From NCBI GenBank assembly GCA_025558095.1, contig JAIVFI010000051.1, forward strand, positions 1 to 21,801: a stretch of 21,801 nt of DNA, in the 5' to 3' direction. The stretch comes from Hyaloraphidium curvatum. Taxonomy: Eukaryota; Monoblepharomycota; Hyaloraphidiomycetes; Hyaloraphidiales; Hyaloraphidiaceae. This document shows positions 1 to 20,868 of this stretch, piece after piece. Position 1 is the stretch's first letter; the number at the start of each line of letters is the position of its first letter. Made by a program: the position numbers and the translations under genes. The notes beneath the pieces were generated by a model. That model was given only the letters and a program-made list of their open reading frames with translations, had not been told where the DNA came from and ran no database searches.

Positions 1-664
1 GTCTGCAAGCCAACCTCGAACGGCACAGGCGAGGCGACCACCATCTGCCTCGGGTCAACGGGGTGCGCCGAGCCGTTGCCGAGCATCCCGTCCGACGGGT
101 ACCGCGCGACGGAGCCGTACTCCGACTCGGAGGGGATGGAGCCCGAGTTGCCCGACGCGCCGGTGCTCGAACGCTGCACGGGGCGCGAGCCGTTCGTCTC
201 GGTGGGCGAAGTCTGCTGCAGCGCGCGCGCCTCTGCCCTGCGGGACTCTTCCAGCATCTGCTCCAATTTTTCGAGGCGCTCTGCAATAAGGGGGGGGGGG
301 TTGGAACGGGGATCAGCGGGGGATGGGAGGCAGGCGCCCCACCCTTCATCGAGGTCGAGCCCTTCGGCGGCCCGCGCTTCTTGACGCTGCGCGTGAACAA
401 GCAGTCGAGGTCCTTGCGCTCGCAGCGGCCGCACCGCGGCGCCGCGCCGTCGCACTTTGCCCGCCGAGCCGAACACGCCTGAACGGGGAGGGAACGGGGC
501 GCGGCCACCGGGCGACCGCGTCAGCAATACAAACATGATTAGAAAGCAGGTTACCGCACATCGCAGGCCGTCGTCGCGCGCTGCGGGCGGGAGTCAGCGG
601 TCGCCCGGGGTGGCAAGGCCACCGCGCCCACCTGCCGTCCGCCGCCGCCGCCGTTTCCGTCCAT
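1..664 (-). CDS. Zn2Cys6 fungal transcription factor, N-terminal part (copy A)
   Basis: This is the 5' portion of the same gene found whole at 9805-12371; the rest lies left of the window. By correspondence with unit C, exon 1 is 560-664 (start ATG at 664), intron 1 is 479-559, exon 2 is 343-478, intron 2 is 281-342, and exon 3 runs from 280 off the edge. It encodes the zinc cluster, split by intron 1 between its first and second cysteines, then the linker KKRGPPKG and the start of a Leu/Glu-rich coiled coil. The sequence is the same as unit C through this stretch, so this copy is predicted to be translatable as far as can be seen. Confidence 0.85.
290..300. repeat. Poly-G/poly-C tract in intron 2 of the transcription factor (copy A)
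   Basis: A run of 11 G on the plus strand reads as C11 on the coding strand, followed by TTATTGCAG. It is the pyrimidine tract just upstream of the intron 2 acceptor. The equivalent runs are 13 G at 6148-6160 in unit B and 11 G at 11997-12007 in unit C. Confidence 0.85.
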
Positions 665-850
665 CTCGCTGCGGTGCGCGCGTTCGACCGCTGGGAGGCC
701 CGCGTCGCGCCGCGTTGGACCCCGAGGCCGGCCGGGCTGTGGGTGGTGGTCGGCCGGCGGCGTTCGGTCGGGAACCCGATGACGGCTGGGGTTGGTTGTC
801 CCTACTTCGCCTCCTTCGCCGTTCCACAGAAACTTGGAATCTGGCGAAGT

Positions 851-1432
851 GCGGAGGCAGCGCTGCTTAGTCCGGATAAAATGGATTCTGCCAGCCGGAT
901 GGCATGGCGGAGCCAAACGGGAGCGTTTGAGGACCCGGCGGGAAGGGGAGTCTTTCCGGGGGCGCACCGCCGCTTTGGCCGTCGGCCAGCTAGTCCGCAC
1001 GCGCCGCTGGCATGCAGGCATCACCGCTCGCTCACAACATCCGGAAAGCGTTTCCGGCAAATGCGGAAAAGGTGCGGCGCGATCCCGCTTCGCCAGCGCT
1101 CTCCGACTTCTACCGCCCCCGGGGGAGAATGTGGGATTCCGGTGCTCAGCGCAGCCATCCGCCGCGAGGTACCCACCCGCGTGGCTCCGCTGGCGATCCG
1201 CGATCACCTCTACTGATTCCGAGCGGACGGGCACAGGGCTTGCGGGGAAGGACAGCCGAGGGTAGGGGCCGGGAAAACGGAGAAACCGGGGTGGCAACGG
1301 CCTTGGGCCCCGCGACTGCAAGGAAAAGGCGACTACCTGGCGGAAAAGTGGTCTCCTGGGTTGTGTCTCTTGTTCTTGTGCCTCGCTTCCACCCAGCGCG
1401 ACAGAAGAGCCTCACAAAGCTGACGTGGCTTC
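851..1432 (+). repeat. Dispersed ~580 bp element, copy A
   Basis: It begins GCGGAGGCAGCGCTGC and ends near GTGGCTTC. It is essentially identical to 6711-7291 and 12558-13140, and clearly but imperfectly similar (very roughly 80% by eye) to 14740-15327 outside the array. Conserved blocks include GTCGGCCAGCTAGTCCGCAC and CATCCGGAAAGCGTTT. The function is unknown. Confidence 0.75.
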
Positions 1433-1690
1433 ACGCACCCCAGCCCTCGCCGGGTGATTCCATCAGCTTGTCTGTCGTCCTACCGCAGAAGAATCCAGTT
1501 TTTCTGGAGCGGATTCGCCGATCTTCATGCTTGATGTTGCGGACGTTGCGTGACTTCGTCCTCAGACGACGCTAATACCCCCTTGGAGACGGCACGCTGG
1601 GTTGGGGCAGAGGCGATTCGGACGTGGCGGAATCCCGACGTGCTAAGGCTCCTGCTCGATCTCGACACCATCCGTGCCGACACATCTCTT

Positions 1691-1780
1691 TGTTTGTTTT
1701 GCACATTTCCTCGGTGCAGCAATTGTCGCAGATGCGTGATCGCGGCATCATAAGAAGGCTTGCGAAAGCGACATCGGGCA
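1691..1780 (+). pseudogene. Possible decayed MYND zinc finger (copy A)
   Basis: One frame reads CLFCTFPRCSNCRRC, then a TAA stop, then EGLRKRHRA. This resembles the MYND order C-x2-C ... RCxxC ... KECQKRHWA, with the later cysteines lost and an in-frame stop. It lies downstream of the dispersed element, just as the living MYND gene at 15539 does. The match is short and could be chance. Confidence 0.3.
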
Positions 1781-1835
1781 CGTCGAATATCCCCGAGCCC
1801 CGCTTGCTCTATACATATGCTCCTACGCAGAGGCG

Positions 1836-1837
1836 AC
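1836..1837. other. Unit A/unit B junction, inside the synthetase gene
   Basis: On the left, GCAGAGGCGA is shared with the right end of unit C (13545). On the right, the minus strand reads the synthetase codons for WWQTETG. The join lies within the codon after TETG. In unit C the same left-hand sequence continues into single-copy DNA, so this is the novel joint of the duplication. Confidence 0.85.
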
Positions 1838-3546
1838 CAGTCTCGGTCTGCCACCAGTTGTCGATGACGGGACACCGAGCAGCTGCGCAAAGTGGTTCGC
1901 CGTGTCCGTGTCGCAGCGCTCGCCGGCAACGAACATGACCTTGAGCGAGGAATGTCGTGCTGGCGGAGGTAGTGCCCGTGCGGGTCCTCGCGGTTGACGC
2001 GCGGAGCGCCGTCGGGGCCGTGAACAGGATCGAGGCCTTGTGCTCCTCTACGATGCGCCAGAAGGCGCCGGGTTGGGCGTCACGGGCTTGCCCTCGTAGA
2101 TAATGCTGGTGCAGCCGTTGAGCAGGGGGGCGTAGCAGATGAAGGTGTGGCCGACGACCCAGCCGAGGTCAGAGCGGCGAGGACGACCTCGCCGGGAGCG
2201 GCGCCCCATGAAGTGCTTCATGGCCCCTTGAGGGCCACGGCGTGGCCGCCGTTCTCGCGGACGATGCCCTTGGGCACGCCCTGTGGGATGGCAAGGGATC
2301 CTTGATCAACGCCCGCCGAGCCGATCAGCCTCTTCAACCCACCGTGGTGCCGCTGGTAGAGCACGTACAGCGGGTCCTCGCTGTCCATCTCGGCGTACTT
2401 CCTGGGCTTGCGCTTCTCGCGCCTTGACCCGCTTAACCTCGGCCTGCCAGTCGATCTCCTCTTGGCGGGGTCCAGCACCGCGGGCACCTGGGCGCGCTGC
2501 AGGCAGATGATCTTGGGGGGGGGGTTCGCCTGGGCGTGGGCCGAGTGCTTGAAGGACTCGTGGACGCGGTAGGTACGAGTATCACGCGCGAGGGCTCGAT
2601 GCCGCAGGACTGAGGTGGTCGTCAGCATGGGTCGAGGCGTGATCCCCAGTGATCGGGAACTCACCGCGGTCAGGATCACTTTGGGGCTGCAGTCGTCGAG
2701 GCGCTTGCGAGCTCCTTGGGCGCGAAACCGCCAAAGACGACCGAGTGGACGGCGCCGAGCTTGGCGCAGCCAGCATGCCGACGACGGCGTCGACGACCAT
2801 GGGCATGTAGATGATGACGGTGTCTCCCTTGTTGACGCCGTGGTCCGCAAGGACGTGGGAGAAGTGGTCGACCATGTGTGAGCTCGGAGTAGTGACGGCG
2901 GCGGCGCGCGTTGGTTGTAGGCCGAGTCCCAGATGAGGGCGACGCCTATCGCCGCGCCCCTCGTCAGACGTGGCGCTGGCAGGCAGTTGTAGGCCGTGTT
3001 CATCTTGCCGCCCTTGAACCAGTGGCCACTGCGGGGAGGCCGGGATCAGCAACGCCACACCATGCCGCCCGAGGACGCAGTCGAGTCATTCCGCGCCGCC
3101 AGGGTCGCCATCGCGCCTCCCGCGACCGCAGGCAGGATTTTCCAATGGAATGAAAGAGACCCAACGCCATCCCCGACCCGAAACGCACCTCCTTGCCGCC
3201 GTCGGTGCCCTCGAAAATCTTGTCCGGGAACCTGAACCACTTGAGGTCCAGCGCGGCCTGGCCCCAGAATCCGGCCGGGTCCTCGAGCGACTGCTTGTGC
3301 ACCGCGGCCTGCAGCGAGTCGTTGTGGCCGTGCGCGTCGGCGCCGGTCGCGAAGGAGCGGGCGGGGGCGGGGGGCGGGCACCCGCTGGGAAACGGGGCCG
3401 GAGCAGCAGATGCAGGCCGAGCACGTGCGGATGGCCGCGGCGCACGGAGCGACGCGGACGGCGGGCGGGCGGCCGCGGCGCGGACGGCGCGTGCGGCCGG
3501 CGCGAGGCGGGTGGCGCGCGCGGCGAGCTTCGACGGCGCGGGGCAT
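1837..3546 (-). pseudogene. ACSS3/PrpE-like short-chain acyl-CoA synthetase, truncated and frameshifted (copy B)
   Basis: This is the copy of the gene described at 7697-9408, starting at the ATG at 3546 and cut at the unit junction. Many one-base indels relative to unit C break its frame, for example an extra G three bases upstream of the ATG's cat at 3541-3544, lost bases around 2940-3010, and a lost G near 2766. No long stretch stays in one frame, although recognisable pieces such as NTAYNCL and WSTGT-like fragments survive in alternating frames. As written it cannot encode a synthetase. Because the lesions are almost all single-base indels, sequencing error explains them better than biological decay. 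Confidence 0.75.
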
Positions 3547-3946
3547 CGCGGCGGGGGGGCGCTAGGGGCTTCCTGGGCTCCGCTTGGGGTGCTCGGAGTT
3601 CCTCCGCGTAACCACGCAGCTCGGGTTACAGCGGTGCTCGTCGGGTTCCGGCCGGTGAATAGTCAGACGGAGGGAACGCCCGGCTCTGCGTCCATGGCCC
3701 ACTCTCCGCGCGGGCCCCGCGTCCCCGCAGCATTACAAACACACAGGAAACGGGCGATTGGTGCCGCAATCCAAACGATGTTGCCCGTCTGAGCTTGCTG
3801 ACGGAGCTTCCTCGCCGATGCGGGCAACAGGACCTGGATGGCCCTCGTTTTCTCGCCCGCAGATATTCTGGAGAGTTTTCGCGAAACTCCGTTTCTCCTT
3901 GTCATAGCCCGTACACCATTCGCCGCAGCGTGCGGCACCCCGACGA

Positions 3947-6524
3947 TCACGACTGCGCGGAAAACAGTCCCCGGAAGAAGTTGACGGTGTTGAGCAGCCG
4001 GCTGTGCCGCCCAAAGTACGCCTCGGTGGTCTGCACCATCTGCGCCACGTTCGCGAACCCCAATCTGGCCCACCAGGCGGCGTGCGTTGAGCGACTCGAT
4101 GCACACGTCGCCGGGGGGCGGGTCGTCGCCGAAGTAGTCCCCCAGGCGGCCGAGTGCAGGGCGAGCTTGAGGGCGAGGCAGAGGAAGACGGCGGTCGGGC
4201 GGCGCTCGCCCAGGCGGTCGAGCACCGAGATGGCGATCTCGACGCGCTCCTTGAGCTCGTTGTGAAGCGCCTGCAGGTCGCCTGCGGGGACGGAGGAGAT
4301 CTTCTTGGACGAGCATGATGTGGAGCTGTGCGGCACGACGGCGGCGTCAGCATCGCAGCTCCACAGAAGCCACCGCCACGCAGCCACCTGGGTGGTGAAG
4401 ATCACCGCCTCGGTCGCCCAGAACGGCAGAAGCTCAACCTCCACGGGCCGTCAGCAGCCCGTCAGCAGCGACGAGTGCTCCGTCCGCCACCAGAAAGTCC
4501 GTGCTCGCCAGCCACTCGGCGTCCCCGAGCAGGTTGTACCCCTTGGGCGGGGTGTGCAGGAGCTCCTGCACCCAGTTGTAGTAGATCAGCACGTGCACGG
4601 CGAGGGTGCGGGGCATGCCGTCGGCGGGGGCGGGGGTAGGCGGGCGGCTGGAGACGTAGGCGCTGGATTCCTCGTGGGGGAGGCAGTCGTTGCCACGCGC
4701 GGAGCTGCGCCTCGAGGAACTGCTTGTGCGCGGAGGTGCGGTGCACGTCGCGCTGGTAGTCGACGACCAGGGTCTGCGGCCGGCGGGCGTGTCAGCGGGT
4801 CCGAGGCGTCCACCGGGCCGACGACGAACCAGGATGTACTGCAGCACGATCCCCTTGGCCATGCTCGACATCTGCGGCAGGAGCAGCGGGTACGCCTGCG
4901 GTCCGGCCATGAACATGCCCAGCGTCACCGGCAACCCTGCCCGCCGCTTCCGGCCCCGGCCCGCCCGCGATGAACACCTCGTCGTGGCAAGGCATCGGCA
5001 GTTGCTCCATCCTCTCGAGCGGGATGGTGAAGTACCGCACGGACGACAGCACGGTGAAGTTGCGGGTCGTACAAGAAGAGCATCCACAGCAGCCGCCGCC
5101 GCTCTCTCCCAACCGGATCCAGTCGTCCCCCGTGCGGCCCTGCCGGCGGAGCTCCTCCATCGGGAGTTCCCGCCCGAGCAGGAGCAGCGTGTCGACGGTG
5201 CGGACGCCGGAGTACTTGTGGGCCGAGAGGGCGCCGAACGCAAAGGCGGCCTGCAGCAGGACGGCGACCTCGTAGGCTTCGACGGGGCGGGTGGGGATGA
5301 AAATCCGCGAGAGGATGGACTGTTGCACCCCGAGGAAGATGTGCCTCGCCCAGCTCGGAGCGGGAGCGGTGCGGGGAGGAGGCGACGATGGGGTCGAGCG
5401 CGGGATCAAGAGGAGAACTTGATCGCCATGGCGAGCACCGAAAGGATGACATAGGAGGGGTAGGCCGGGGTCGGTAGAGCAGGCTTGGGGGGTGGAAGAT
5501 GGGGTTGGTGGGCCAGACGTAGCGGAAGTAGGTCCGGATCAGGCTGTGTAGAGCGCCTGGTCGACCATGAAGGCATGTCCATGGCGGCGCTGACGGCCAT
5601 GAAGGCGGTGCCGAAGCGCCGGCGCGAGAAGGAGGCAGGGTTGGAGGGGAAGGCGGCCTGAGCGGCAAACGCCGGCGGCTCGTTTGAGTGGTGCCATGGC
5701 GGCCGACTGGTAAGACGCCGATGGAGCTGGATCCGCTGGTCCCCGGGTAGCCAGCGGGACAAATGGCATGCCGTTCGGGGCATGCACGGGCGAGGGAGCC
5801 CGGGGGAACAACCGACGGCTGGAACGCGAGCTGCTGGGCCCGGCCCAGGAACTGTGTCCTGCAAGCCAACCTCGAACGCACAGGCGAGGCGACCACCATC
5901 TGCCTCGGGTCAACGGGGTGCGCCGAGCCGTTGCCGAGCATCCCGTCCGACGGGTACCGCGCGACGGAGCCGTACTCCGACTCGGAGGGGATGGAGCCCG
6001 AGTTGCCCGCGCGCCGGTGCTCGAACGCTGCAAACCGGTGCGCGAGCCGTTCGTCTCGGTGGGCGAAGTTCTGCTGCAGCGCGCGCGCCTCTGCCCTGCG
6101 GGACTCTTCCAGCATCTGCTCCAATTTTTCGAGGCGCTCTGCAATAAGGGGGGGGGGGGGTTGGAACGGGGATCAGCGGGGGATGGGAGGCAGGCGCCCA
6201 CCCTTCATCGAGGTCGAGCCCTTCGGCGGCCCGCGCTTCTTGACGCTGCGCGTGAACAAGCAGTCGAGGTCCTTGCGCTCGCAGCGGGCCGCACCGCGGC
6301 GCCGCGCCGTCGCACTTTGCCCGCCGAGCCGAACACGCCTGAACGGGGAGGGAACGGGGCGCGGCCACCGGGCGACCGCGTCAGCAATACAAACATGATT
6401 AGAAAGCAGGTTACCGCACATCGCAGGCCGTCGTCGCGCGCTGCGGGCGGGAGTCAGCGGTCGCCCGGGGTGGCAAGGCCACCGCGCCCACCTGCCGTCC
6501 GCCGCCGCCGCCGTTTCCGTCCAT
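3947..6524 (-). pseudogene. Zn2Cys6 fungal transcription factor, frameshifted (copy B)
   Basis: This copy of the gene at 9805-12371 runs from the ATG at 6524 to the TGA at 3947. It is 2578 bases long against 2567 in unit C, so the net gain is 11 bases, while many individual indels offset one another. Exon 1 and the zinc cluster region are nearly clean. The middle and C-terminal exons are broken repeatedly, for example around 4080, 5470, 5570 and 5640-5860. The final exon regains frame and ends in FFRGLFSAQS, as in unit C. This is a pseudogene as written and probably an unpolished version of an intact copy. Confidence 0.75.
6148..6160. repeat. Poly-G/poly-C tract in intron 2 (copy B, 13 bases)
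   Basis: The equivalent runs are 11 bases in units A and C. It lies at the intron 2 acceptor of the regulator. The length difference is as expected for homopolymer miscalling or slippage. Confidence 0.85.
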
Positions 6525-6710
6525 CTCGCTGCGGTGCGCGCGTTCGACCGCTGGGAGGCCCGCGTCGCGCCGCGTTGGACCCCGAGGCCGGCCGGGCTGT
6601 GGGTGGTGGTCGGCCGGCGGCGTTCGGTCGGGAACCCGATGACGGCTGGGGTTGGTTGTCCCTACTTCGCCTCCTTCGCCGTTCCACAGAAACTTGGAAT
6701 CTGGCGAAGT

Positions 6711-7291
6711 GCGGAGGCAGCGCTGCTTAGTCCGGATAAAATGGATTCTGCCAGCCGGATGGCATGGCGGAGCCAAACGGGAGCGTTTGAGGACCCGGCG
6801 GGAAGGGGAGTCTTTCCGGGGGCGCACCGCCGCTTTGGCCGTCGGCCAGCTAGTCCGCACGCGCCGCTGGCATGCAGGCATCACCGCTCGCTCACAACAT
6901 CCGGAAAGCGTTTCCGGCAAATGCGGAAAAGGTGCGGCGCGATCCCGCTTCGCCAGCGCTCTCCGACTTCTACCGCCCCCGGGGGAGAATGTGGGATTCC
7001 GGTGCTCAGCGCAGCATCCGCCGCGAGGTACCCACCCGCGTGGCTCCGCTGGCGATCCGCGATCACCTCTACTGATTCCGAGCGGACGGGCACAGGGCTT
7101 GCGGGGGAAGGACAGCCGAGGGTAGGGGCCGGGAAAACGGAGAACCGGGGTGGCAACGGCCTTGGGCCCCGCGACTGCAAGGAAAAGGCGACTACCTGGC
7201 GGAAAAGTGGTCTCCTGGGTTGTGTCTCTTGTTCTTGTGCCTCGCTTCCACCCAGCGCGACAGAAGAGCCTCACAAAGCTGACGTGGCTTC
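6711..7291 (+). repeat. Dispersed ~580 bp element, copy B
   Basis: Near-identical to 851-1432 and 12558-13140, and diverged from 14740-15327. Confidence 0.75.
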
Positions 7292-7549
7292 ACGCACCCC
7301 AGCCCTCGCCGGGTGATTCCATCAGCTTGTCTGTCGTCCTACCGCAGAAGAATCCAGTTTTTCTGGAGCGGATTCGCCGATCTTCATGCTTGATGTTGCG
7401 GACGTTGCGTGACTTCGTCCTCAGACGACGCTAATACCCCCTTGGAGACGGCACGCTGGGTTGGGGCAGAGGCGATTCGGACGTGGCGGAATCCCGACGT
7501 GCTAAGGCTCCTGCTCGATCTCGACACCATCCGTGCCGACACATCTCTT

Positions 7550-7639
7550 TGTTTGTTTTGCACATTTCCTCGGTGCAGCAATTGTCGCAGATGCGTGATC
7601 GCGGCATCATAAGAAGGCTTGCGAAAGCGACATCGGGCA
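7550..7639 (+). pseudogene. Possible decayed MYND zinc finger (copy B)
   Basis: Same CLFCTFPRCSNCRRC, TAA, EGLRKRHRA reading as at 1691-1780. See that entry for the argument and its weakness. Confidence 0.3.
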
Positions 7640-7695
7640 CGTCGAATATCCCCGAGCCCCGCTTGCTCTATACAATATGCTCCTACGCAGAGGCG

Positions 7696-7697
7696 AC
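7696..7697. other. Unit B/unit C junction, inside the synthetase gene
   Basis: Same join as at 1836/1837: GCAGAGGCGA on the left and the synthetase breakpoint on the right. The synthetase frame does not stop here. It runs on into unit B sequence to a stop at 7384, adding about 103 unrelated residues beginning RLCVGAYCIEQ. Confidence 0.85.
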
Positions 7698-9408
7698 CAG
7701 TCTCGGTCTGCCACCAGTTGTCGATGACGGGCACACCGAGCAGCTGCGCAAAGTGGTTCGCCGTGTCCGTGTCGCAGCGCTCGCCGGCAACGAACATGAC
7801 CTTGAGCGAGGAAATGTCGTGCTGGCGGAGGTAGTGCCCGTGCGGGTCCTCGCGGTTGACGGCGCGGAGCGCCGTCGGGGCCGTGAACAGGATCGAGGCC
7901 TTGTGCTCCTCTACGATGCGCCAGAAGGCGCCCGGGTTGGGCGTCACGGGCTTGCCCTCGTAGATAATGCTGGTGCAGCCGTTGAGCAGGGGGGCGTAGC
8001 AGATGAAGGTGTGGCCGACGACCCAGCCGAGGTCAGAGGCGGCGAGGACGACCTCGCCGGGAGCGGCGCCCATGAAGTGCTTCATGGCCCACTTGAGGGC
8101 CACGGCGTGGCCGCCGTTCTCGCGGACGATGCCCTTGGGCACGCCCTGTGGGATGGCAAGGGATCCTTGATCAACGCCCGCCGAGCCGATCAGAGCCTCT
8201 TCAACCCACCGTGGTGCCGCTGGTGTAGAGCACGTACAGCGGGTCCTCGCTGTCCATCTCGGCGTACTTCCTGGGCTTGCGCTTCTCGGCCTTGACCCGC
8301 TTAACCTCGGCCTGCCAGTCGATCTCCTTCTTGGCGGGGTCCAGCACCGCGGGCACCTGGGCGCGCTGCAGGCAGATGATCTTGGGGGGGTTCGCCTGGG
8401 CGTGGGCCGAGTGCTTGAAGGACTCGTGGACGAGCGGGAGGTACGGGATCACGCGCGAGGGCTCGATGCCGCAGGACTGAGGTGGTCGTCAGCATGGGTC
8501 GAGGCGTGATCCCAGTGATCGGAACTCACCGCGGTCAGGATCACTTTGGGCTGGCAGTCGTCGAGGCGCTTGGCGAGCTCCTTGGGCGCGAAACCGCCAA
8601 AGACGACCGAGTGGACGGCGCCGAGCTTGGCGCAGGCCAGCATGCCGACGACGGCGTCGACGACCATGGGCATGTAGATGATGACGGTGTCGCCCTTGTT
8701 GACGCCGTGGTCCGCAAGGACGTGGGAGAAGTGGTCGACCATGGTGTTGAGCTCGGAGTAGGTGACGCGGCGGCGCGCGTTGGTGTAGGCCGAGTCCCAG
8801 ATGAGGGCGACGCTATCGCCGCGCCCCTCGTCGACGTGGCGCTGCAGGCAGTTGTAGGCCGTGTTCATCTTGCCGCCCTTGAACCAGTGCCACTGCGGGG
8901 AGGCCGGGATCAGCAACGCCACACCATGCCGCCCGAGGACGCAGTCGAGTCATTCCGCGCCGCCAGGTCGCCATCGCGCCTCCCGCGACCGCAGGCAGGA
9001 TTTTCCAATGGAATGAAAGAGACCCAACGCCATCCCCGACCCGAAACGCACCTCCTTGCCGCCGTCGGTGCCCTCGAAAATCTTGTCCGGGAACCTGAAC
9101 CACTTGAGGTCCAGCGCGGCCTGGCCCCAGAATCCGGCCGGGTCCTCGAGCGACTGCTTGTGCACCGCGGCCTGCAGCGAGTCGTTGTGGCCGTGCGCGT
9201 CGGCGCCGGTCGCGAAGGAGCGGGCGGGGGCGGGGGCGGGCACCCGCTGGGAAAACGGGGCCGGAGCAGCAGATGCAGGCCGAGCAACCGTGCGGATGGC
9301 CGCGGCGCACGGAGCGACGCGGACGGCGGCGGGCGCCGCGGCGCGGACGGCGCGTGCGGCCGGCGCGAGGCGGGTGGCGCGCGCGGCGAGCTTCGACGGC
9401 GCGGGCAT
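7697..9408 (-). CDS. Mitochondrial ACSS3/PrpE-like short-chain acyl-CoA synthetase, 3'-truncated (copy C)
   Basis: An ATP-dependent acid:CoA ligase of the acetyl/propionyl-CoA synthetase family. Exons are 9052-9408, 8530-8892, 8210-8476 and 8145 down to the unit junction at 7697. The introns (8893-9051, 8477-8529, 8146-8209) have GTGCGT, GTGAGT and GTGGGT donors with CAG acceptors, and all are phase 0. The start is the ATG at 9408, opening an Ala/Arg-rich, acid-free presequence that ends near RSFATG, so a mitochondrial location is likely. Family marks in order are WFKGGKMNTAYNC, GAVHSVVFGGFAPKEL, SCGIEPSR, the phosphate-binding YTSGTTGVPKG (about residues 324-334), RENGGHAVALKW, ASDLGWVVGH, LFTAPTALRAV and DNWWQTETG (about residue 478). 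The wording is closer to PrpE/ACSS3 (propionyl or acetyl) than to Acs. About 150-200 C-terminal residues are missing, including the domain with the catalytic adenylation lysine, so this copy should be inactive. A complete copy is predicted left of the window. Confidence 0.8.
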
Positions 9409-9804
9409 CGCGGCGGGGGGGCGCTAGGGGCTCCTGGGCTCCGCTTGGGGTGCTCGGAGTTTCCGCGTAACCACGCAGCTCGGGTTACAGCGGTGCTCGT
9501 CGGGTTCCGGCCGGTGAATAGTCAGACGGAGGGAACGCCCGGCTCTGCGTCATGGCCCACTCTCCGCGCGGGCCCCGCGTCCCCGCCGCATTACAAACAC
9601 ACAGGAAACGGGCGATTGGTGGCCGCAATCCAAACGATGTTGCCCGTCTGAGCTTGCTGACGGAGCTTCCTCGCCGATTGGCGGGCAACAGGACCTGGAT
9701 GGCTCGTTTCTCGCCCGCAGATATTCTGGAGAGTTTTCGCGAAACTCCGTTTCTCCTTGTCATAGCCCGTACACCATTCGCCGCAGCGTGCGGCACCCCG
9801 ACGA
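9409..9804. promoter_or_regulatory. Intergenic: 3' flank of the regulator and presumed promoter of the synthetase
   Basis: 396 bases between the synthetase ATG and the regulator's stop codon, both genes on the minus strand. No coding sequence is supported, and I recognise no TATA box or specific operator. The unit B equivalent is 3547-3946. Confidence 0.45.
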
Positions 9805-12371
9805 TCACGACTGCGCGGAAAACAGTCCCCGGAAGAAGTTGACGGTGTTGAGCAGCCGGCTGTGCCGCCCAAAGTACGCCTCGGTGGTCTGCACCATCTG
9901 CGCCACGTTCGCGAACCCCATCTGGCCCACCAGCGCGGCGTTGAGCGACTCGATGCCCACGTCGCCGGGGGGCGGGTCGTCGCCGAAGTAGTCCCCCAGG
10001 CCGGCCGAGTGCAGGGCGAGCTTGAGGGCGAGGCAGAGGAAGACGGCGGTCGGGCGGCGCTCGCCCAGGCGGTCGAGCACCGAGATGGCGATCTCGACGC
10101 GCTCCTTGAGCTCGTTGTGAAGCGCCTGCAGGTCGCCTGCGGGGACGGAGGAGATCTTCTTGACGAGCATGATGTGGAGCTGTGCGGCACGACGGCGGCG
10201 TCAGCATCGCAGCTCCACAGAAGCACACCGCCACGCAGCCCACCTGGGTGGTGAAGATCACCGCCTCGGTCGCCCAGAACGGCAGAAGCTCCACCTCCAC
10301 GGCCGGCAGCAGCCCCGTCAGCAGCGACGAGTGCTCCGCCGCCACCAGAAAGTCCGTGCTCGCCAGCCACTCGGCGTCCCCGAGCAGGTTGTACCCCTTG
10401 GGCGGGGTGTGCAGGAGCTCCTGCACCCAGTGGTAGTAGATCAGCACGTGCACGGCGAGGGTGCGGGGCATGCCGTCGGCGGGGGCGGGGGTAGGCGGGC
10501 GGCTGGAGACGTAGGCGCTGGATTCCTCGTGGGGGAGGCAGTCGTGCCACGCGCGGAGCTGCGCCTCGAGGAACTGCTTGTGCGCGGAGGTGCGGTGCAC
10601 GTCGCGCTGGTAGTCGACGACCAGGGTCTGCGGCCGGCGGGCGTGTCAGCGGGTCCGAGGCGTCCACCGGGCCGACGACGAACCAGGATGTACTGCAGCA
10701 CGATCCCCTTGGCCATGCTCGACATCTGCGGCAGGAGCAGCGGGTACGCCTGCGGTCCGGCCATGAACATGCCCAGCGTCACCGGCACCCTGCCCGCCGC
10801 TTCCGGCCCCGGCCCGCCCGCGATGAACACCTCGTCGTGGCAAGGCATCGGCAGTTGCTCCATCCTCTCGAGCGGGATGGTGAAGTACCGCACGGACGAC
10901 AGCACGGTGAAGTTGCGGTCGTACAAGAAGAGCATCCACAGCAGCCGCCGCCGCTCCTCCCACCGGATCCAGTCGTCCCCCGTGCGGCCCTGCCGGCGGA
11001 GCTCCTCCATCGGGAGTTCCCGCCCGAGCAGGAGCAGCGTGTCGACGGTGCGGACGCCGGAGTACTTGTGGGCCGAGAGGGCGCCGAACGCAAAGGCGGC
11101 CTGCAGCAGGACGGCGACCTCGTAGGCTTCGACGGGGCGGGTGGGGATGAAAATCCGCGAGAGGATGGACTGTTGCACCCCGAGGAAGATGTGCTCGCCC
11201 AGCTCGGAGCGGGAGCGGTGCGGGGAGGAGGCGACGATGGGGTCGAGCGCGGGATCAGAGGAGAACTTGATCGCCATGGCGAGCACCGAAAGGATGACAT
11301 AGGAGGGGTAGGCCGAGGGTCGGTAGAGCAGGCTTGGGGGGTGGAAGATGGGGTTGGTGGGCCAGACGTAGCGGAAGTAGGTCCGGATCAGGCTGGTGTA
11401 GAGCGCCTGGTCGACCATGAAGGGCATGTCCATGGCGGCGCTGACGGCCATGAAGGCGGGTGCCGAAGGCGCCGGCGGCGAGAAGGAGGCAGGGTTGGAG
11501 GGGAAGGCGGCCTGAGCGGCAAACGCCGGCGGCTCGTTGAGTGGTGCCATGGCGGCCGACTGGTAGACGCCGATGGAGCTGGATCCGCTGGTCCCCGGGT
11601 AGCCGAGCGGGACAAATGGCATGCCGTTCGGGGCATGCACGGGCGAGGGAAGCCCGGGGAACACCGACGGCTGGAACGCGAGCTGCTGGCCCGGCGCCAG
11701 GAACTGTGTCTGCAAGCCAACCTCGAACGGCACAGGCGAGGCGACCACCATCTGCCTCGGGTCAACGGGGTGCGCCGAGCCGTTGCCGAGCATCCCGTCC
11801 GACGGGTACCGCGCGACGGAGCCGTACTCCGACTCGGAGGGGATGGAGCCCGAGTTGCCCGACGCGCCGGTGCTCGAACGCTGCACGGGGCGCGAGCCGT
11901 TCGTCTCGGTGGGCGAAGTCTGCTGCAGCGCGCGCGCCTCTGCCCTGCGGGACTCTTCCAGCATCTGCTCCAATTTTTCGAGGCGCTCTGCAATAAGGGG
12001 GGGGGGGTTGGAACGGGGATCAGCGGGGGATGGGAGGCAGGCGCCCCACCCTTCATCGAGGTCGAGCCCTTCGGCGGCCCGCGCTTCTTGACGCTGCGCG
12101 TGAACAAGCAGTCGAGGTCCTTGCGCTCGCAGCGGCCGCACCGCGGCGCCGCGCCGTCGCACTTTGCCCGCCGAGCCGAACACGCCTGAACGGGGAGGGA
12201 ACGGGGCGCGGCCACCGGGCGACCGCGTCAGCAATACAAACATGATTAGAAAGCAGGTTACCGCACATCGCAGGCCGTCGTCGCGCGCTGCGGGCGGGAG
12301 TCAGCGGTCGCCCGGGGTGGCAAGGCCACCGCGCCCACCTGCCGTCCGCCGCCGCCGCCGTTTCCGTCCAT
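9805..12371 (-). CDS. Zn2Cys6 fungal-specific transcription factor, complete (copy C)
   Basis: A DNA-binding nuclear regulator. Five exons (12267-12371, 12050-12185, 10684-11987, 10244-10627, 9805-10179) join into 2304 bases, or 767 residues. Donors are GTGCGG, GTGGGG, GTTCGT and GTGGGC; all four introns contain GCTGAC or GCTGAT and end in CAG. The start at 12371 (MDGNGGGGG) is the first ATG leading into the cluster. Cysteines 34, 37, 44, 51, 54 and 61 give C-x2-C-x6-C-x6-C-x2-C-x6-C, and intron 1 falls between the first two. The linker KKRGPPKG and the coiled-coil start ERLEKLEQMLEES follow, then a long low-complexity spacer. The middle homology region has LIRTYFRYVWPTNPIFHPP (near residue 278) and RRRLLWMLFLYDRN (near 430). 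It lies just upstream of the synthetase, co-directional. Control of acid catabolism, by analogy with FacB-type regulators, is only a guess from position. Confidence 0.88.
11997..12007. repeat. Poly-G/poly-C tract in intron 2 (copy C, 11 bases)
   Basis: C11 on the coding strand just before TTATTGCAG, the intron 2 acceptor. Intron 2 spans 11988-12049. Joining ATGAAGG to AGCGCCTC restores a frame reading MKERLEKLEQ. Confidence 0.85.
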
Positions 12372-12557
12372 CTCGCTGCGGTGCGCGCGTTCGACCGCTG
12401 GGAGGCCCGCGTCGCGCCGCGTTGGACCCCGAGGCCGGCCGGGCTGTGGGTGGTGGTCGGCCGGCGGCGTTCGGTCGGGAACCCGATGACGGCTGGGGTT
12501 GGTTGTCCCTACTTCGCCTCCTTCGCCGTTCCACAGAAACTTGGAATCTGGCGAAGT

Positions 12558-13140
12558 GCGGAGGCAGCGCTGCTTAGTCCGGATAAAATGGATTCTGCCA
12601 GCCGGATGGCATGGCGGAGCCAAACGGGAGCGTTTGAGGACCCGGCGGGAAGGGGAGTCTTTCCGGGGGCGCACCGCCGCTTTGGCCGTCGGCCAGCTAG
12701 TCCGCACGCGCCGCTGGCATGCAGGCATCACCGCTCGCTCACAACATCCGGAAAGCGTTTCCGGCAAATGCGGAAAAGGTGCGGCGCGATCCCGCTTCGC
12801 CAGCGCTCTCCGACTTCTACCGCCCCCGGGGGAGAATGTGGGATTCCGGTGCTCAGCGCAGCCATCCGCCGCGAGGTACCCACCCGCGTGGCTCCGCTGG
12901 CGATCCGCGATCACCTCTACTGATTCCGAGCGGACGGGCACAGGGCTTGCGGGGGAAGGACAGCCGAGGGTAGGGGCCGGGAAAACGGAGAAACCGGGGT
13001 GGCAACGGCCTTGGGCCCCGCGACTGCAAGGAAAAGGCGACTACCTGGCGGAAAAGTGGTCTCCTGGGTTGTGTCTCTTGTTCTTGTGCCTCGCTTCCAC
13101 CCAGCGCGACAGAAGAGCCTCACAAAGCTGACGTGGCTTC
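12558..13140 (+). repeat. Dispersed ~580 bp element, copy C
   Basis: Near-identical to copies A and B, and about four-fifths identical by eye to 14740-15327 in the same orientation. With that fourth copy it flanks the GPI-protein gene as a direct repeat about 2.2 kb apart. Confidence 0.75.
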
Positions 13141-13398
13141 ACGCACCCCAGCCCTCGCCGGGTGATTCCATCAGCTTGTCTGTCGTCCTACCGCAGAAGA
13201 ATCCAGTTTTTCTGGAGCGGATTCGCCGATCTTCATGCTTGATGTTGCGGACGTTGCGTGACTTCGTCCTCAGACGACGCTAATACCCCCTTGGAGACGG
13301 CACGCTGGGTTGGGGCAGAGGCGATTCGGACGTGGCGGAATCCCGACGTGCTAAGGCTCCTGCTCGATCTCGACACCATCCGTGCCGACACATCTCTT

Positions 13399-13488
13399 TG
13401 TTTGTTTTGCACATTTCCTCGGTGCAGCAATTGTCGCAGATGCGTGATCGCGGCATCATAAGAAGGCTTGCGAAAGCGACATCGGGCA
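13399..13488 (+). pseudogene. Possible decayed MYND zinc finger (copy C)
   Basis: Reads CLFCTFPRCSNCRRC, VIAAS, then TAA at 13459-13461, then EGLRKRHRA. The frame upstream (from about 13258) also looks protein-like, for example TWRNPDVLRLLLDLDTI, but lacks an ATG start. Confidence 0.3.
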
Positions 13489-13631
13489 CGTCGAATATCC
13501 CCGAGCCCCGCTTGCTCTATACAATATGCTCCTACGCAGAGGCGAGTACACTTTGACCGGTCCCAACCCTGTGGAGATCCAAAGTCACCCAACACGCCAC
13601 AATCATTTCGCTTGCATGCCGCAATCCAACG

Positions 13632-14600
13632 TCATGCGAGGAAAGCCGCGCCGAGCGCGCCGACGGTCCCCCAGATCCCCCAACCGGCCGACGTGCGCGG
13701 GGCGGATGCGGGCCTGATGGTGACGGGGGAACCCTGGGACACCGTCGAAGAGGAGGTCGCCTTGACTGTCGCCGTGGTCGTCTGCGCGGCCGGGAGAACG
13801 GACGTCTGCGTCGCCTGGGCGGTTTGCGCGATCGAAGTGCCGCTGCGGGTCCTCGAGGCGCCCGAGGTCCCGTTGTTGGCACCGTCGTCGAACAGGAAAC
13901 CGGCAGCGTCCTCAGTTTCGGTGTCGCCTTCGGTAGCGGGATCGGTTCCGGGAGCAGCGGTCGGGCTCGCCTCGGGGTCGGCTCCGGTAGCCGGATCGGT
14001 ACCGGGAGCGGGGCTCGGGCTAGCCTCGACGGCCACGGACGTGCCCGGCGGCGTCCCCTTGGCGTACTCGCCCCCGTCGACGAAGAACGTGATGCAGCGC
14101 CGCTCCTGCGGGAGACCACTATTGATAAAGGTGTCCGGCGTCACGGAACGGCCCGCAATCTCGAAGTTCTGCAGCTCGATGAAGATGCACTTCCCGTTGA
14201 GGCCGGCCAGGTCCAGGTTGGGCGCGGCGACGACCTTTCCTCCCTGGATTTGGAAGGCATTGCAATCGGCAGCGTTGAAGGCGCCGGGGATGTGCAAGCC
14301 GTAACTCGTCACCTCGCCCAACGGGGTGTACCTGGACGGAGGCCTGAACGCGGCGATGGAGGACGAAACCACGCCTCCGGCCGGAGTCACGGCTAGGCGG
14401 GGAACGTTCAACCCGCTGTCGACGAACACAAATCCACAGGTCTCAAAGGGATCGGCGGTACAGTCGAATCCCGTCGAGAGGATCTTCATGCCAGCGTCGA
14501 ATATCGGCCGGCCGCATTCGTCCGTCTTCTGGGCTGCGCCCGCTGGCGCAAGCATGAAGGGGAGCGCGAGCACGGCGAGAAGGGTGGCGGGTCGGGGCAT
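13632..14600 (-). CDS. Secreted GPI-anchored Ser/Thr/Pro-rich surface protein
   Basis: 322 residues in a single exon; I do not recognise a named family. The start at 14600 is chosen because it opens a clean signal peptide (MPRPATLLAVLALPFMLAPA, cleavage near GAA/QKT). The frame extends upstream, but that part is Arg/Pro-rich and lacks secretory character. The body (about residues 24-195) holds six cysteines, in DEC, FDC, ETC, ADC, GKC and RRC, which is compatible with three disulfides. The C-terminal third is rich in Ser, Thr, Pro and Ala, has two PGTDPAT repeats and a short acidic patch (EGDTETED), and is a likely O-glycosylated stalk. The chain ends in a small-residue site followed by the hydrophobic tail WGIWGTVGALGAAFLA, typical of GPI attachment. 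Expected location is the plasma membrane or cell wall. It sits immediately right of the array edge and is single copy here. Confidence 0.82.
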   Translation of the reverse strand: MPRPATLLAVLALPFMLAPAGAAQKTDECGRPIFDAGMKILSTGFDCTADPFETCGFVFVDSGLNVPRLAVTPAGGVVSSSIAAFRPPSRYTPLGEVTSYGLHIPGAFNAADCNAFQIQGGKVVAAPNLDLAGLNGKCIFIELQNFEIAGRSVTPDTFINSGLPQERRCITFFVDGGEYAKGTPPGTSVAVEASPSPAPGTDPATGADPEASPTAAPGTDPATEGDTETEDAAGFLFDDGANNGTSGASRTRSGTSIAQTAQATQTSVLPAAQTTTATVKATSSSTVSQGSPVTIRPASAPRTSAGWGIWGTVGALGAAFLA

Positions 14601-15538
14601 GGTGTTGCCGTTGCTGTGGGGGAGAAGAAGATCGGGGGGAAGCGGGCGGGCTATGCACTTAACTTGATTGTTGCGGGCCAAGAATTGTCGCGCGCCGCGT
14701 TTCATGGAACGACGCGGGAAGCTTGAACGGCGGCGGAGCGCGGAGGCAGCGCTGCCCAGTCCGGATGAAAGTGGCTCAGCACAGGTTGGCATGATGGGGC
14801 CAAACAGGAGCGTTGGAGGACCCGGCGGGAGGGGGAGTCTCTCCGGGACGAGCACCGCCGCCGCGGCCGTCGGCCAGCTAGTCCGCACGCGCCACTGGCA
14901 TGCAGCACCGCCGCTCGCTGCAGGACATCCGGAAAGCGTTTACGGCAAAGGCGGAAAAGGTCCGGCGCGATCCCGCCTCGCCGGCGCTCGCCGACTTCTC
15001 TACGGTCCCCTGGGGAAGGCAGAATGTGAGATTCCGGTGCCCAGCGCAGCCATCCGCCGCGAGGCACGCACCCGCGTGGCTCCGCTGGCTTTCCGCGATT
15101 ACCCTAAATAATAGCGAGGGGACTGGCTCAGGGCTTGCGCGGGAGGGACCGCTGAGGGTAGGGACCGGGAAAGCGGAGAAACCGGGTGGCAACGGCCTTG
15201 GCCTCCGCGATTGCTGTTATGGGAGGTTCACCAAGCGGATAATGAGTCCATTAAGTTCGTGTCGCTTGTTGTTGTGCCGCGTTTCCACCCAGCGCAGGAG
15301 AATGGCGCGACAAGTGGAAGTGGCTTCCTCGGCCCAGTTTGACTTCGACCAGTACCCTTAGCCCACCTCTCGATTCATCGGATTCTGAAAAACCCCATTG
15401 GAGCTGCTTCAGCTGTGATAACTGTTGCCCGTGGACTGAAAACATCAGACGTTTGTTTTGCGCTTTTGTCCTCCACGTCTCGAACGAGTCACCCACTCAT
15501 AGACAGGACACTCTCACCAACGGGCGAAGACGATAGAC
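14601..15538. promoter_or_regulatory. Divergent intergenic region between the GPI-protein and MYND genes
   Basis: 938 bases serve as the 5' region of both flanking genes. Most of it is occupied by the diverged fourth copy of the dispersed element. A short A/T-richer stretch (15330-15480) contains GTTTGTTTTGCGCTTTTGTCCTC, which resembles GTTTGTTTTGCACATTTCCTC at about 13401 in the array, so the similarity may extend beyond the element. No gene is supported. Confidence 0.5.
14740..15327 (+). repeat. Dispersed ~590 bp element, copy D (diverged, outside the array)
   Basis: Begins GCGGAGGCAGCGCTGC and follows the array element to about GTGGCTTC. Long shared blocks include GTCGGCCAGCTAGTCCGCAC, CATCCGGAAAGCGTTT and GCAGCCATCCGCCGCGAGG, interrupted by substitutions and small indels. 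The best open frame differs between copies, which argues against coding. It lies just upstream of the MYND gene. Confidence 0.75.
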
Positions 15539-16892
15539 ATGGCAATGCTCTTCCGCAACGACCTGGAAGTGGAAGCCGGGGGCCACGCTAGTGGTGAGGT
15601 TCTCCTCCCGCACGCCAGCATGTGCATGGACGACCGGCCGACCGGCTCCTCTGGATCAAAGCGGCCTGCCTGGCCTGCGGCCAGAAAGACGATCCCCTGC
15701 GGCGCTGCGGTGCCTGCCAGACGGCGCCGTACTGTTCCAAGGAATGCCAGCGGGGCCACTGGGCTGCGCACCGGGAAGCCTGCCCCGTCCTCCTCCACCC
15801 GTTCGACTGTGCCTGAGCGGCCATCGCCCGTCCGGCTCGGAAACAAGCACGGCCGGGAAGCCACGCGCTCCAAGCCGACGGCCCCGTGTCCCGTCGTGAA
15901 CATCGTCAGCGACGCGGGCGCCCGGGCGCGCTGATGGTTGCGGCCTACAACGCCGAGAGAATGACTCTACGCGAAAGACGTTGGAGATCTGCGAAAAGAA
16001 GGGGATCGAGGTCGTGCCCGACGCCTTCGACTGCAACGCAATCTGGACGTCGACCAATGGCTTCACCACGTAGCCCGTCACGCCGGGCATAATGAAGGAC
16101 GGTGCGCAGCGTGATTCGAGGGTCATGACCTACGTCGAAACCATTATCAACGAGGATGGGCAGCGGACGCTGGCACTGGCCAATGATCTCGGCATTCGGG
16201 CGAAAGTTCTGGTCAGCTCCTTCGGCGACATCGCAAGCCGCGCATTCCCGGCGCTTCCGCCTGAGGCACCTCCTTCAATGGCCGATCTGTCGGCAACGAA
16301 GGTCAAGCGCACATGCGACGGCCACCGCAAGCCCGTGCTCCCCGGCTGCGAGGAATGGGAGTTCCTTCACTGCCTTCTGCCTTCGGCGCCTGTAGCTACG
16401 CCCTCCGCACTCGACCCATCAAACCCCGATTCGCCCCTCTTCTTCCGCCGCACGCCCCCTGCTGCACCGTACGCGCCGGATGCGATTGAAGGCCGCGTGC
16501 TGACCGCCTCGGACCACCCGGGCCCCTTCTTCGCCCTCCCGGGGGACAGCATCACCGCGTTCGCGCTGTGCACCGCGCTCCCGACGAACTCCCTCGGCCT
16601 CGCCCCCGGATTGCACGTCCAGCACGTGGAGGTCAACACGAGCACGGGGCTCTTCCGGGTGCTCGGTGCCTCGGGGTGGAGCTTCGGCACGGTCGTGCCG
16701 GACAAGATGGGGCGGTACATCGCGGCGATGGGGGCGCGGTGCGCGGATTGTGAGGGGCCGGAGGGGCCGGAAGGGTGGCGGCGGCCGGCCAGCAAGAAGG
16801 CGATCGATGAGGAGCGCGATCGGAGGTTCGGGGTCAAGGCGTGCGGCCAGAAATACGGCAGCAACCAGTACGTTCCCTATCCTCTCAAATAA
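15539..16892 (+). CDS. MYND-type zinc finger protein (exon structure unresolved)
   Basis: The MYND finger is clear at about 15665-15785: CLACGQKDDPLRRCGAC, then YCSKECQRGHWAAHREAC, which supplies all seven cysteines and the histidine of a protein-binding zinc finger. A possible first exon is 15539-15593 (MAMLFRNDLEV...), with intron 15594-15661 (GTGAGG donor). The phases fit, but the acceptor is AAAG and no CTGAC branch site is seen, so this join is doubtful. After the finger the frame stops at 15814-15816. The C-terminal part is a confident reading frame from about 16074 to the stop at 16892 (MKDGAQRD ... GSNQYVPYPLK), of no family I recognise. Between them, 15900-16070 reads protein-like (TLEICEKKGIEVVPDAFDC) in the C-terminal frame but meets TAG at 16071-16073, either an intron end or a true stop. 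The finger and the 16074-16892 part could also be separate genes. Confidence 0.55.
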
Positions 16893-16997
16893 CGTAGCTC
16901 TGGAGGGTACAATGGTTTTCTTCGAGTAGATCGACGACAAGGGGAATCGGCGACAGGGGGGAGTGACCGGACCCAGCCATCAGCTGGAAACCTCGCA

Positions 16998-17789
16998 ATG
17001 TCCTGCACTTGTGGCGCCTTGGACGAGGTTATGGCGCTACGGAGACGCGTCGAGGTGTGCGAGTGGCAGCTTGCCAACGCCGAAGCGCGAAGCGCGGAGC
17101 TGGAGCGCGAGAACGACGCGTTGCGAACCTCTGCTGTAGGGGCGCGATCCGGCGCCTCCCAAGGGCTCGGGGCCGCCGGCTATGGAACCTCCGGACATTC
17201 TGTGGCACATACGGATCCGGTCGTCGGGACTGCGCCCGCTTTGGCGTCCCCAGAGCAGGAGAGGGCAGAGGCATTCCCGGAGCTTGACTTGTCTGAGGAC
17301 GGGGACAGATCGAACATCGGCGACGCGTTCTTGGAGCCCGAGCATGCTCAAAAACAAGCTCGGAGAGCAGCATTGGAAACCGACGACGACTCAATGGACC
17401 CGCCCTACGACTCGGACGCCGAAGCGGATCTCCACTCCCGCACACCCCTCCGGACACCCCTATCGGTGTGCGAATCCGCCGTCCGCCACGCCGACGAAGC
17501 GTACCCGGACCACCTGACCCTACTGGAGCTCAAAACCCTGCTGGAATCCGACGCCGCGTTCCCCCCGCTGGGGGTGCCCGACACGTTGCCCGCGCTGTGG
17601 AAGCTCCTCCTCAACAACCGCACCCCGGGGACGCTGAGGATGTGGTCGTTCCCCGGCAGCGGGCAGGGGGAGCAGCGGAGGCTCGTGGGGTCGGGGGAGA
17701 CGGAGGTGCCCGAGGAGCATCAGGGGAGAAGGGGGTTCGTGGACTACGGCACTGACGGGGTGGAGCCGGTGAACGATATGTACCGATGA
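16998..17789 (+). CDS. Hypothetical protein with N-terminal coiled coil and acidic middle
   Basis: 263 residues in a single exon, starting MSCTCGALDEV. I do not recognise a family. Residues 10-45 (MALRRRVEVCEWQLANAEA and on through ELERENDAL) look like a coiled coil, so self-association or partner binding is likely. The middle (about 90-150) is acidic and disordered-looking (LDLSEDGDRS, TDDDSMDPPYDSDAE). The C-terminal part has a hydrophobic helical stretch (LTLLELKTLLE, LPALWKLLLNN) that may be folded. It begins 105 bases after the stop of the preceding reading frame on the same strand and converges on the acyl-CoA dehydrogenase gene. Codon use matches its neighbours. It could be a further exon of the upstream gene rather than independent, but its own ATG and complete frame favour a separate gene. 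Confidence 0.6.
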   Translation: MSCTCGALDEVMALRRRVEVCEWQLANAEARSAELERENDALRTSAVGARSGASQGLGAAGYGTSGHSVAHTDPVVGTAPALASPEQERAEAFPELDLSEDGDRSNIGDAFLEPEHAQKQARRAALETDDDSMDPPYDSDAEADLHSRTPLRTPLSVCESAVRHADEAYPDHLTLLELKTLLESDAAFPPLGVPDTLPALWKLLLNNRTPGTLRMWSFPGSGQGEQRRLVGSGETEVPEEHQGRRGFVDYGTDGVEPVNDMYR

Positions 17790-17917
17790 AGGAGTCGAAG
17801 CATGTTTTCTGCTGCGCCAACGTGGTCTACCGGGGCCTGTGTCGTAGCAAGCTACGGCCAAGTGCGCCCGCTAGCCCGTCGAGCAGGAGCAAGAAGTCTA
17901 CTTCCGATTCCATCGCG

Positions 17918-19249
17918 CTAGTAGCTCTTGGGCAGGTCCAGCACCTTCTCCCCGATGAACGACATGATGAGCTGCTCCGACACGGGCGCCAGCCTCGTGA
18001 TGGCCACCTCCCGGTAAAGCCTCTCGACGTGGTACTCCTTGGCGTACCCCATCCCCCCGAACGTGGCCATAGCCTGCCAGCACGCGTCGTGCCCGGCCTT
18101 GCCTCCGAGGAACTTGGCCGCGTTGGCCTCGGCCCCGCACGCCAGCCCGCGGTCGTACAGCCGCGCGGCGTGCAGCGCCATCAGCCACGCCGACTCGAGG
18201 TACATCCACCGCTCGGCGAGGGGGTGCTGGATGCCCTGGTTCTGCCCGATCGGCCGGTCGAAAACAACGCGCTCGCGGGCGTAGGCGGCCGCGCGGCGGA
18301 GGGCGTCCTGGCCGATGGCGATGGCCTCGGCGGCGATGAGCACGCGCTCGGGGTTGAGCGAGTGGAGGATGTACGAGAACCCCTTGCCCTCCTCGCCAAT
18401 GCGGTCGTGCTCGGGGACGAAGAGGTCGTCGATAAAGACCGAGTTGGAATCGACGGCCTTGCGGCCCATCTTTGGGATGCGGTGCGCGGTGATTCGGCTG
18501 CGGTCCAGGTCGGTGTAGAAGATGGTGATGCCGTCGGTGGGCTTGGCGCACTCCTCGATGGGTTTGGTCCGCGTGAGGAGCATGATCTTGTTGGCCACCT
18601 GCGCCGTCGACGTCCAGACCTTCTGGCCCTTGACCACGTAGCCGCCGTCCACCTTGCGCGCAAACGTCTTTATCCGGGTCGTGTTCAGGCCCGCGTCGGG
18701 CTCCGTGAACCCAAAGGCCACGCGGTCCTGGCCGGCGATCAGCCGCGGGATCCAGCGCTGCTTCTGCTCCTGCGTGCCCTTGAGCACCACCGGGTGCGGC
18801 CCGAACAGGTTGACGTGCACCGACGACGCCGCTGCCATCCCCCCGCCGTGGCTCGCCACCTCGTGCATCATGACCGCGGCCTCGGTGACCCCCAGCCCCG
18901 CGCCGCCAAACTCGGGGGGCATCGTGATGCCCAGCCAGCCGGCCTCGGCCAGGGCCGCGTGGAACTCGAAGGGGAACTTGCCGTCCTCGTCGCGGGCCAG
19001 CCAGTACTCGTCCGAGAAGCGCGAGACGACGGATCGGACGCCCTCGCGGAGGGACCGCAGGTCGTCGTTGCCGGCGGCGAGATCCGCCTGCGAGGGCAGG
19101 GCGGGCGCGACGGATCCCGACGTGCGGGCAGGAGGGGCGGCCGGCGTCGCCAGCCCGCGGGGCCGCGAAAGTGAAGGAGCCGGAGCGAGGGAGAGCCGCC
19201 CGAGGGCGCCCCGCGCGCGGCTGAGCGACAAGAAACGCGCTCCACGCAT
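17918..19249 (-). CDS. Mitochondrial acyl-CoA dehydrogenase
   Basis: A flavoenzyme that introduces the alpha-beta double bond into an acyl-CoA and passes electrons to ETF. It has 443 residues and no introns, the usual length plus a presequence. The N-terminus (MRGARFLSLSRARGALGRL ... RPRGLATPA) is Arg-rich and acid-free, so mitochondrial matrix is likely. Family marks are GWLGITMPPEFGGAGLG, FGFTEPDAGLNTT, VVKGQKVWTS, NSVFIDDLFVPEHDRIGEEG, FDRPIGQNQGIQHPLAE and FGGMGYAKEYHVERLYRE. The C-terminal YEGT catalytic glutamate of MCAD-type enzymes is absent (APVSEQL instead). Glu301 in LNPERVLIA aligns with the helix-G catalytic glutamate of isovaleryl-CoA and long-chain dehydrogenases. Substrate is not determined; branched or short dicarboxylic acyl-CoA is plausible given the CoA-transferase diverging from the same promoter. 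Confidence 0.92.
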   Translation of the reverse strand: MRGARFLSLSRARGALGRLSLAPAPSLSRPRGLATPAAPPARTSGSVAPALPSQADLAAGNDDLRSLREGVRSVVSRFSDEYWLARDEDGKFPFEFHAALAEAGWLGITMPPEFGGAGLGVTEAAVMMHEVASHGGGMAAASSVHVNLFGPHPVVLKGTQEQKQRWIPRLIAGQDRVAFGFTEPDAGLNTTRIKTFARKVDGGYVVKGQKVWTSTAQVANKIMLLTRTKPIEECAKPTDGITIFYTDLDRSRITAHRIPKMGRKAVDSNSVFIDDLFVPEHDRIGEEGKGFSYILHSLNPERVLIAAEAIAIGQDALRRAAAYARERVVFDRPIGQNQGIQHPLAERWMYLESAWLMALHAARLYDRGLACGAEANAAKFLGGKAGHDACWQAMATFGGMGYAKEYHVERLYREVAITRLAPVSEQLIMSFIGEKVLDLPKSY

Positions 19250-19379
19250 AGTTCAGAGGAAGAAAAATGGACTTTCTTTTGTACCTTGGCCGCTGCAGGC
19301 TAAGGTGAACGCGGGAGACGGTGGCAAGGACGAGACGCGGCAAGTTGTGATCGCGGTCCGACAAACAACCGACGCCGAC
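19250..19379. promoter_or_regulatory. Shared bidirectional promoter of the dehydrogenase and CoA-transferase genes
   Basis: Only 130 bases separate the two divergent start codons. I see no clear TATA box or named operator. Such a short shared region suggests the two genes are co-expressed. Confidence 0.6.
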
Positions 19380-20735: not shown

Positions 20736-20744
20736 GCACTTGTC

Positions 20745-20813
20745 GATTGACGACAGAGGTGCTAAACAGCAGAGCCAAGAACATTGATTGACGATAGAGG
20801 TCCTAAACAGCAG
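20745..20813. repeat. Two imperfect 28-base direct repeats with 41-base period
   Basis: GATTGACGACAGAGGTGCTA continuing AACAGCAG at 20745-20772 recurs at 20786-20813 with two mismatches. It lies just after the CoA-transferase stop, between convergent genes, so it could act in 3'-end processing or be a chance local duplication. Confidence 0.85.
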
Positions 20814-20868
20814 CAGCGCCCATTGCCCATGTTGAGTTTCACTGTCCATTCGCGCGCAGTTTTGATCG

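Follow-up and report, generated by a model that had tools for sequence, protein, structure and literature searches.

The DNA analysed here, called the window, is the entire contig JAIVFI010000051.1 (C51; 21,801 bp), one of the 55 contigs of a 31,925,308 bp (31.9 Mb) assembly. Comparison of C51 with itself reveals a 5.85 kb direct repeat present at 2.3 copies, a partial unit at 1-1836, a full unit at 1837-7696 and a second full unit at 7697-13545, all in the same orientation (units, junctions and flank are given on the + strand). The units meet at 1836/1837 and 7696/7697, and no run of N separates them. Positions 3-7696 align with 5859-13545 at 98.4% identity, with 17 mismatches and 91 gap openings, and positions 1-1836 align with 11708-13545 at 99.89%, with no mismatch and 2 indels; such self-matches are far beyond chance. 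Because the window is the complete contig, the array starts at a contig end: base 1 lies inside the repeat, and C51 has no left flank of the array.

The gene content, with a Fungal_trans domain and introns, fits a fungus. An acyl-CoA synthetase gene of the acetyl/propionyl-CoA synthetase-like type lies on the minus strand of the last unit (7697-9408), with ACAS_N and AMP-binding domains and with parts that match propionate- and acetate-CoA ligases. Also on the minus strand, at 10441-12215, is the gene for a fungal transcription factor with a Fungal_trans domain (PF04082), whose N-terminal Cys cluster, CSARRAKCDGAAPRCGRCERKDLDC, is probably split by an intron. The original prediction was of a tandemly repeated gene pair at no fewer than 2.3 copies, and the repeat with its two junctions is indeed there, but the pair is incomplete: the left edge of the unit cuts the synthetase after WWQTETG, and this Zn-cluster-like regulator is the only gene to lie whole inside the unit. 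At the junctions within C51 the synthetase frame reads into intergenic DNA instead, so that any unit preceded by another carries a synthetase without its C-terminal part.

To the right of the array, 13546-21801 holds genes for a secreted-type protein, an acyl-CoA dehydrogenase and a family III CoA-transferase, and a protein kinase fragment. The dehydrogenase and CoA-transferase genes are arranged head-to-head (17918-20735), and their profile matches include glutaryl-CoA dehydrogenase and succinate-glutarate CoA-transferase; they are possibly a pair for glutarate, and so for lysine breakdown. A stretch of 590 bp occurs twice, once upstream of the regulator (12550-13140) and once in the right flank (14732-15327), the two being 2.2 kb apart and 81% identical; no further locus matching it was found in the whole assembly.

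The unit has another home. A single copy, flanked on either side by unique DNA, lies at C10:39518-45367 in the 818,743 bp contig C10, and the right flank there is the same as that of the window. The correspondence of window 7696-21801 with C10:39518-53623 was established in two overlapping parts, 7696-18178 being letter-for-letter C10:39518-50000 with no difference, and 18000-21801 being 100% identical to C10:49822-53623. Some 14.1 kb of C51, including the whole of the last unit (7697-13545, or C10:39519-45367) and the right flank, thus matches C10 without difference. Because both of these parts match C10 fully, all that C51 adds is an extra 1.3 copies, and a diverged-haplotype haplotig was rejected as the main cause on this same identity. 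No extra copies were seen at the chromosomal locus between both flanks: C10 has both flanks around a single unit, and C51 lacks the left one. On C10 the synthetase gene runs beyond the left edge of the unit, continuing from WWQTETG through an intron (donor GT, acceptor CAG) into WPIAGVCLGLEKTYGDLL, and it is only across C10:39518 that the gene is complete. Two synthetase paralogues on a further contig, C12, form an inverted pair and are collinear with both sides of this edge, in the same order. Judged by the intact gene with its intron and by these paralogues, the arrangement on C10 is the native one. The paralogues themselves (C12:200112-202042 on the plus strand and C12:210583-212417 on the minus strand) stand about 10 kb apart in inverted orientation and are about 88.6% alike.

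The copies in C51 are far from equal in quality. The partial unit corresponds to the last 1838 bp of the unit (C10:43530-45367) and is clean, differing by 2 single-base deletions. The middle copy, 1837-7696, differs from C10 by 94 events, 85 indels and 9 substitutions, and 92 of them fall in 1837-6290; only 2 are found in the 1406 bp of 6291-7696, which may be compared with 2 in the 1836 bp of the partial unit and none in 7696-18178. If events were uniformly distributed, clustering of this degree would have a P of about 3e-9. The noisy span begins at the first junction, has indel errors at a rate of about 2% across its 4.45 kb and stops abruptly near 6290. The earlier claim that copies differ by almost no substitutions and, in clean stretches, by single-base indels only holds as to the scarcity of substitutions (9 against 85 indels); it overlooked how uneven the indels are, with 92 of the 94 events in 1837-6290.

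The differences in the middle copy look like sequencing errors, not like the products of evolution. Indels of 1 bp make up 75 of the 85; 36 of 42 insertions duplicate an adjacent base, where chance would give 19.7, and 26 of 33 deletions lie inside homopolymer runs, where 15.2 are expected. Of 83 indels in the noisy span, 55 fall in coding DNA, which forms 65.8% of that span, and all but one of the 55 (54) shift the frame; the indels are proportional to the coding share and therefore bear no mark of selection. Decay into pseudogenes after an old or selected amplification would account for the numerous frameshifts, but decay should bring substitutions, mostly transitions, throughout the copy, and what is seen is 9 substitutions without one transition and an end to the changes at about 6290. 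Changes of the RIP type, C>T, are absent from the differences of the middle copy. The spectrum led to the rejection of both RIP and pseudogene decay, and the reading of old amplification is extremely improbable. The 9 substitutions are without exception G>T or C>A, which in 1837-6290 is possibly a signature of base-calling or of DNA damage. The span as a whole resembles a stretch poorly supported by reads in an otherwise well-corrected contig.

The two junctions are the part of C51 with no counterpart elsewhere. A 30-mer across the first (1823-1852) is identical to that across the second (7683-7712), and in the whole assembly it occurs at these two C51 sites and nowhere else. Within C10:30001-50000 there are no direct repeats at the two edges of the unit, and only about 1 bp is common to both at the junction; the earlier statement that no mobile element is visible at the edges is consistent with this lack of flanking repeats. 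Recombination between flanking repeats was likewise dismissed, as none was found, the only repeat being the 81% identical 590-bp pair, one copy of which is in the unit and the other in the right flank. An inverted, missed-adapter read artefact was set aside as the copies all have the same direction. A circular-RNA-like origin came to mind because the left edge falls 1-2 bp within an intron donor; the other edge has no acceptor to match, and the position is treated as chance.

C51 is a redundant contig that probably carries a false tandem duplication, the product of faulty reads or of a looped path in the assembly graph. The right end of the unit would have been joined to its left end, either in chimeric or concatenated long reads (one or a few of them) or by the graph loop. 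Since the resulting structure did not fit into C10, it would have been kept as a separate small contig, and the middle copy, with few or no supporting reads, would have retained uncorrected sequencing errors. The redundancy, the single copy on C10, the restriction of the junction to C51 and the error-like differences are shown; the cause at the level of reads or of the graph is inferred. Two observations go against a false duplication. The two junctions coincide to the base, a repetition not expected of one random chimera; it requires a graph loop or a genuine molecule, tandem or circular. Positions 1-1836 and 6291-7696, moreover, are nearly error-free, unlike a single uncorrected read.

The identity of the junctions also speaks for a real but rare structural variant, in which a minority of nuclei or cells, or one haplotype, has the tandem duplication, or in which a 5.85 kb circle has re-joined the chromosome, and the assembler kept a secondary contig of it. 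The 1 bp or so shared at the junction resembles end-joining, and another small contig, C53, has a structural difference from its larger counterpart without sequence divergence. Against such a variant, the absence of any substitution over 14.1 kb relative to C10 gives no sign of a diverged second haplotype, the middle copy has the spectrum of sequencing error, and the left end of the array is unassembled. It is unlikely on balance, and the more specific proposal, that minority nuclei of the sequenced culture had spontaneously amplified the regulator and truncated synthetase in tandem (or held them as an excised circle) and that one secondary contig caught the event, is distinctly unlikely.

A real, fixed tandem array could in principle have been collapsed to one unit on C10, with C51 formed from leftover reads of the array. 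A string graph may reduce a tandem array to a single unit with both flanks, and C51 does lead from the array to the genuine right flank. Yet a fixed array would raise coverage, and one copy would then not be expected to retain indel errors at about 2% through 4.45 kb with the others clean; long reads can span a 5.85 kb unit, and the other redundant small contigs show that this assembly retains false duplicates. A collapsed array is improbable. As to the two readings first offered, a recent amplification with possible dosage effect on the regulator or an assembly error, it is the second that is favoured by the single copy with flanks on C10, the redundancy of the small contigs in the parts examined and the error-like differences. 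Nothing beyond C51 supports the first, and the synthetase of each downstream unit would be truncated. A dosage effect would be possible for the regulator only, and then only if the array exists, because no other gene lies whole in the unit.

False duplications of the homotype class are extra copies without heterozygous differences, ascribed to read errors and under-collapsed sequence, and can be mistaken for gene gain (PMC9516828, Genome Biol. 2022). In this class the copies are commonly, though not necessarily, separated by an assembly gap or by unsupported depth (PMC9516828). The C51 array resembles this class in having no haplotype differences (7696-18178 and 18000-21801 equal C10, and the middle copy has indels plus 9 G>T or C>A changes) and in that the duplicate carries sequence errors, 92 of 94 in 1837-6290. 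Unlike the class described (PMC9516828), the array has its extra copies arranged head-to-tail on a single small contig, and the correct locus sits on a different contig. Chimeric long reads, which join separate stretches, are also known to imitate structural variants (PMC12870357). That account covers joins more than 1 Mb apart or inverted fold-backs, with tandem duplication serving as an example of a true break; unlike those chimeras, a tandem join of the C51 type would escape the flag of the scheme.

Annotating C51 unchanged would inflate the gene count by false copies of the transcription factor and a truncated acyl-CoA synthetase. Copy-number claims resting on any of C50-C55 need checking, since redundancy seems to extend to the other five smallest contigs: in the parts examined C50, C52, C53, C54 and C55 are near-copies of interior segments of C27, C1, C33, C7 and C2, respectively. 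Identity to C1 is 99.96% over the first 19.4 kb of C52; C50 and C54 reach 99.7% and 99.6% against their counterparts over their first 7.5 kb, and 2.5 kb was compared for C55, the first 5 kb of which is N. The first 6 kb of C53 is 100% identical apart from a gap, C53 being without 422 bp present in the C33:156701-157900 region; no repeat was found at the edges of this gap, and the sequence on both sides of it is 100% identical. Small contigs with a structural break relative to a large one may be the remains of odd reads that found no place in the main contig.
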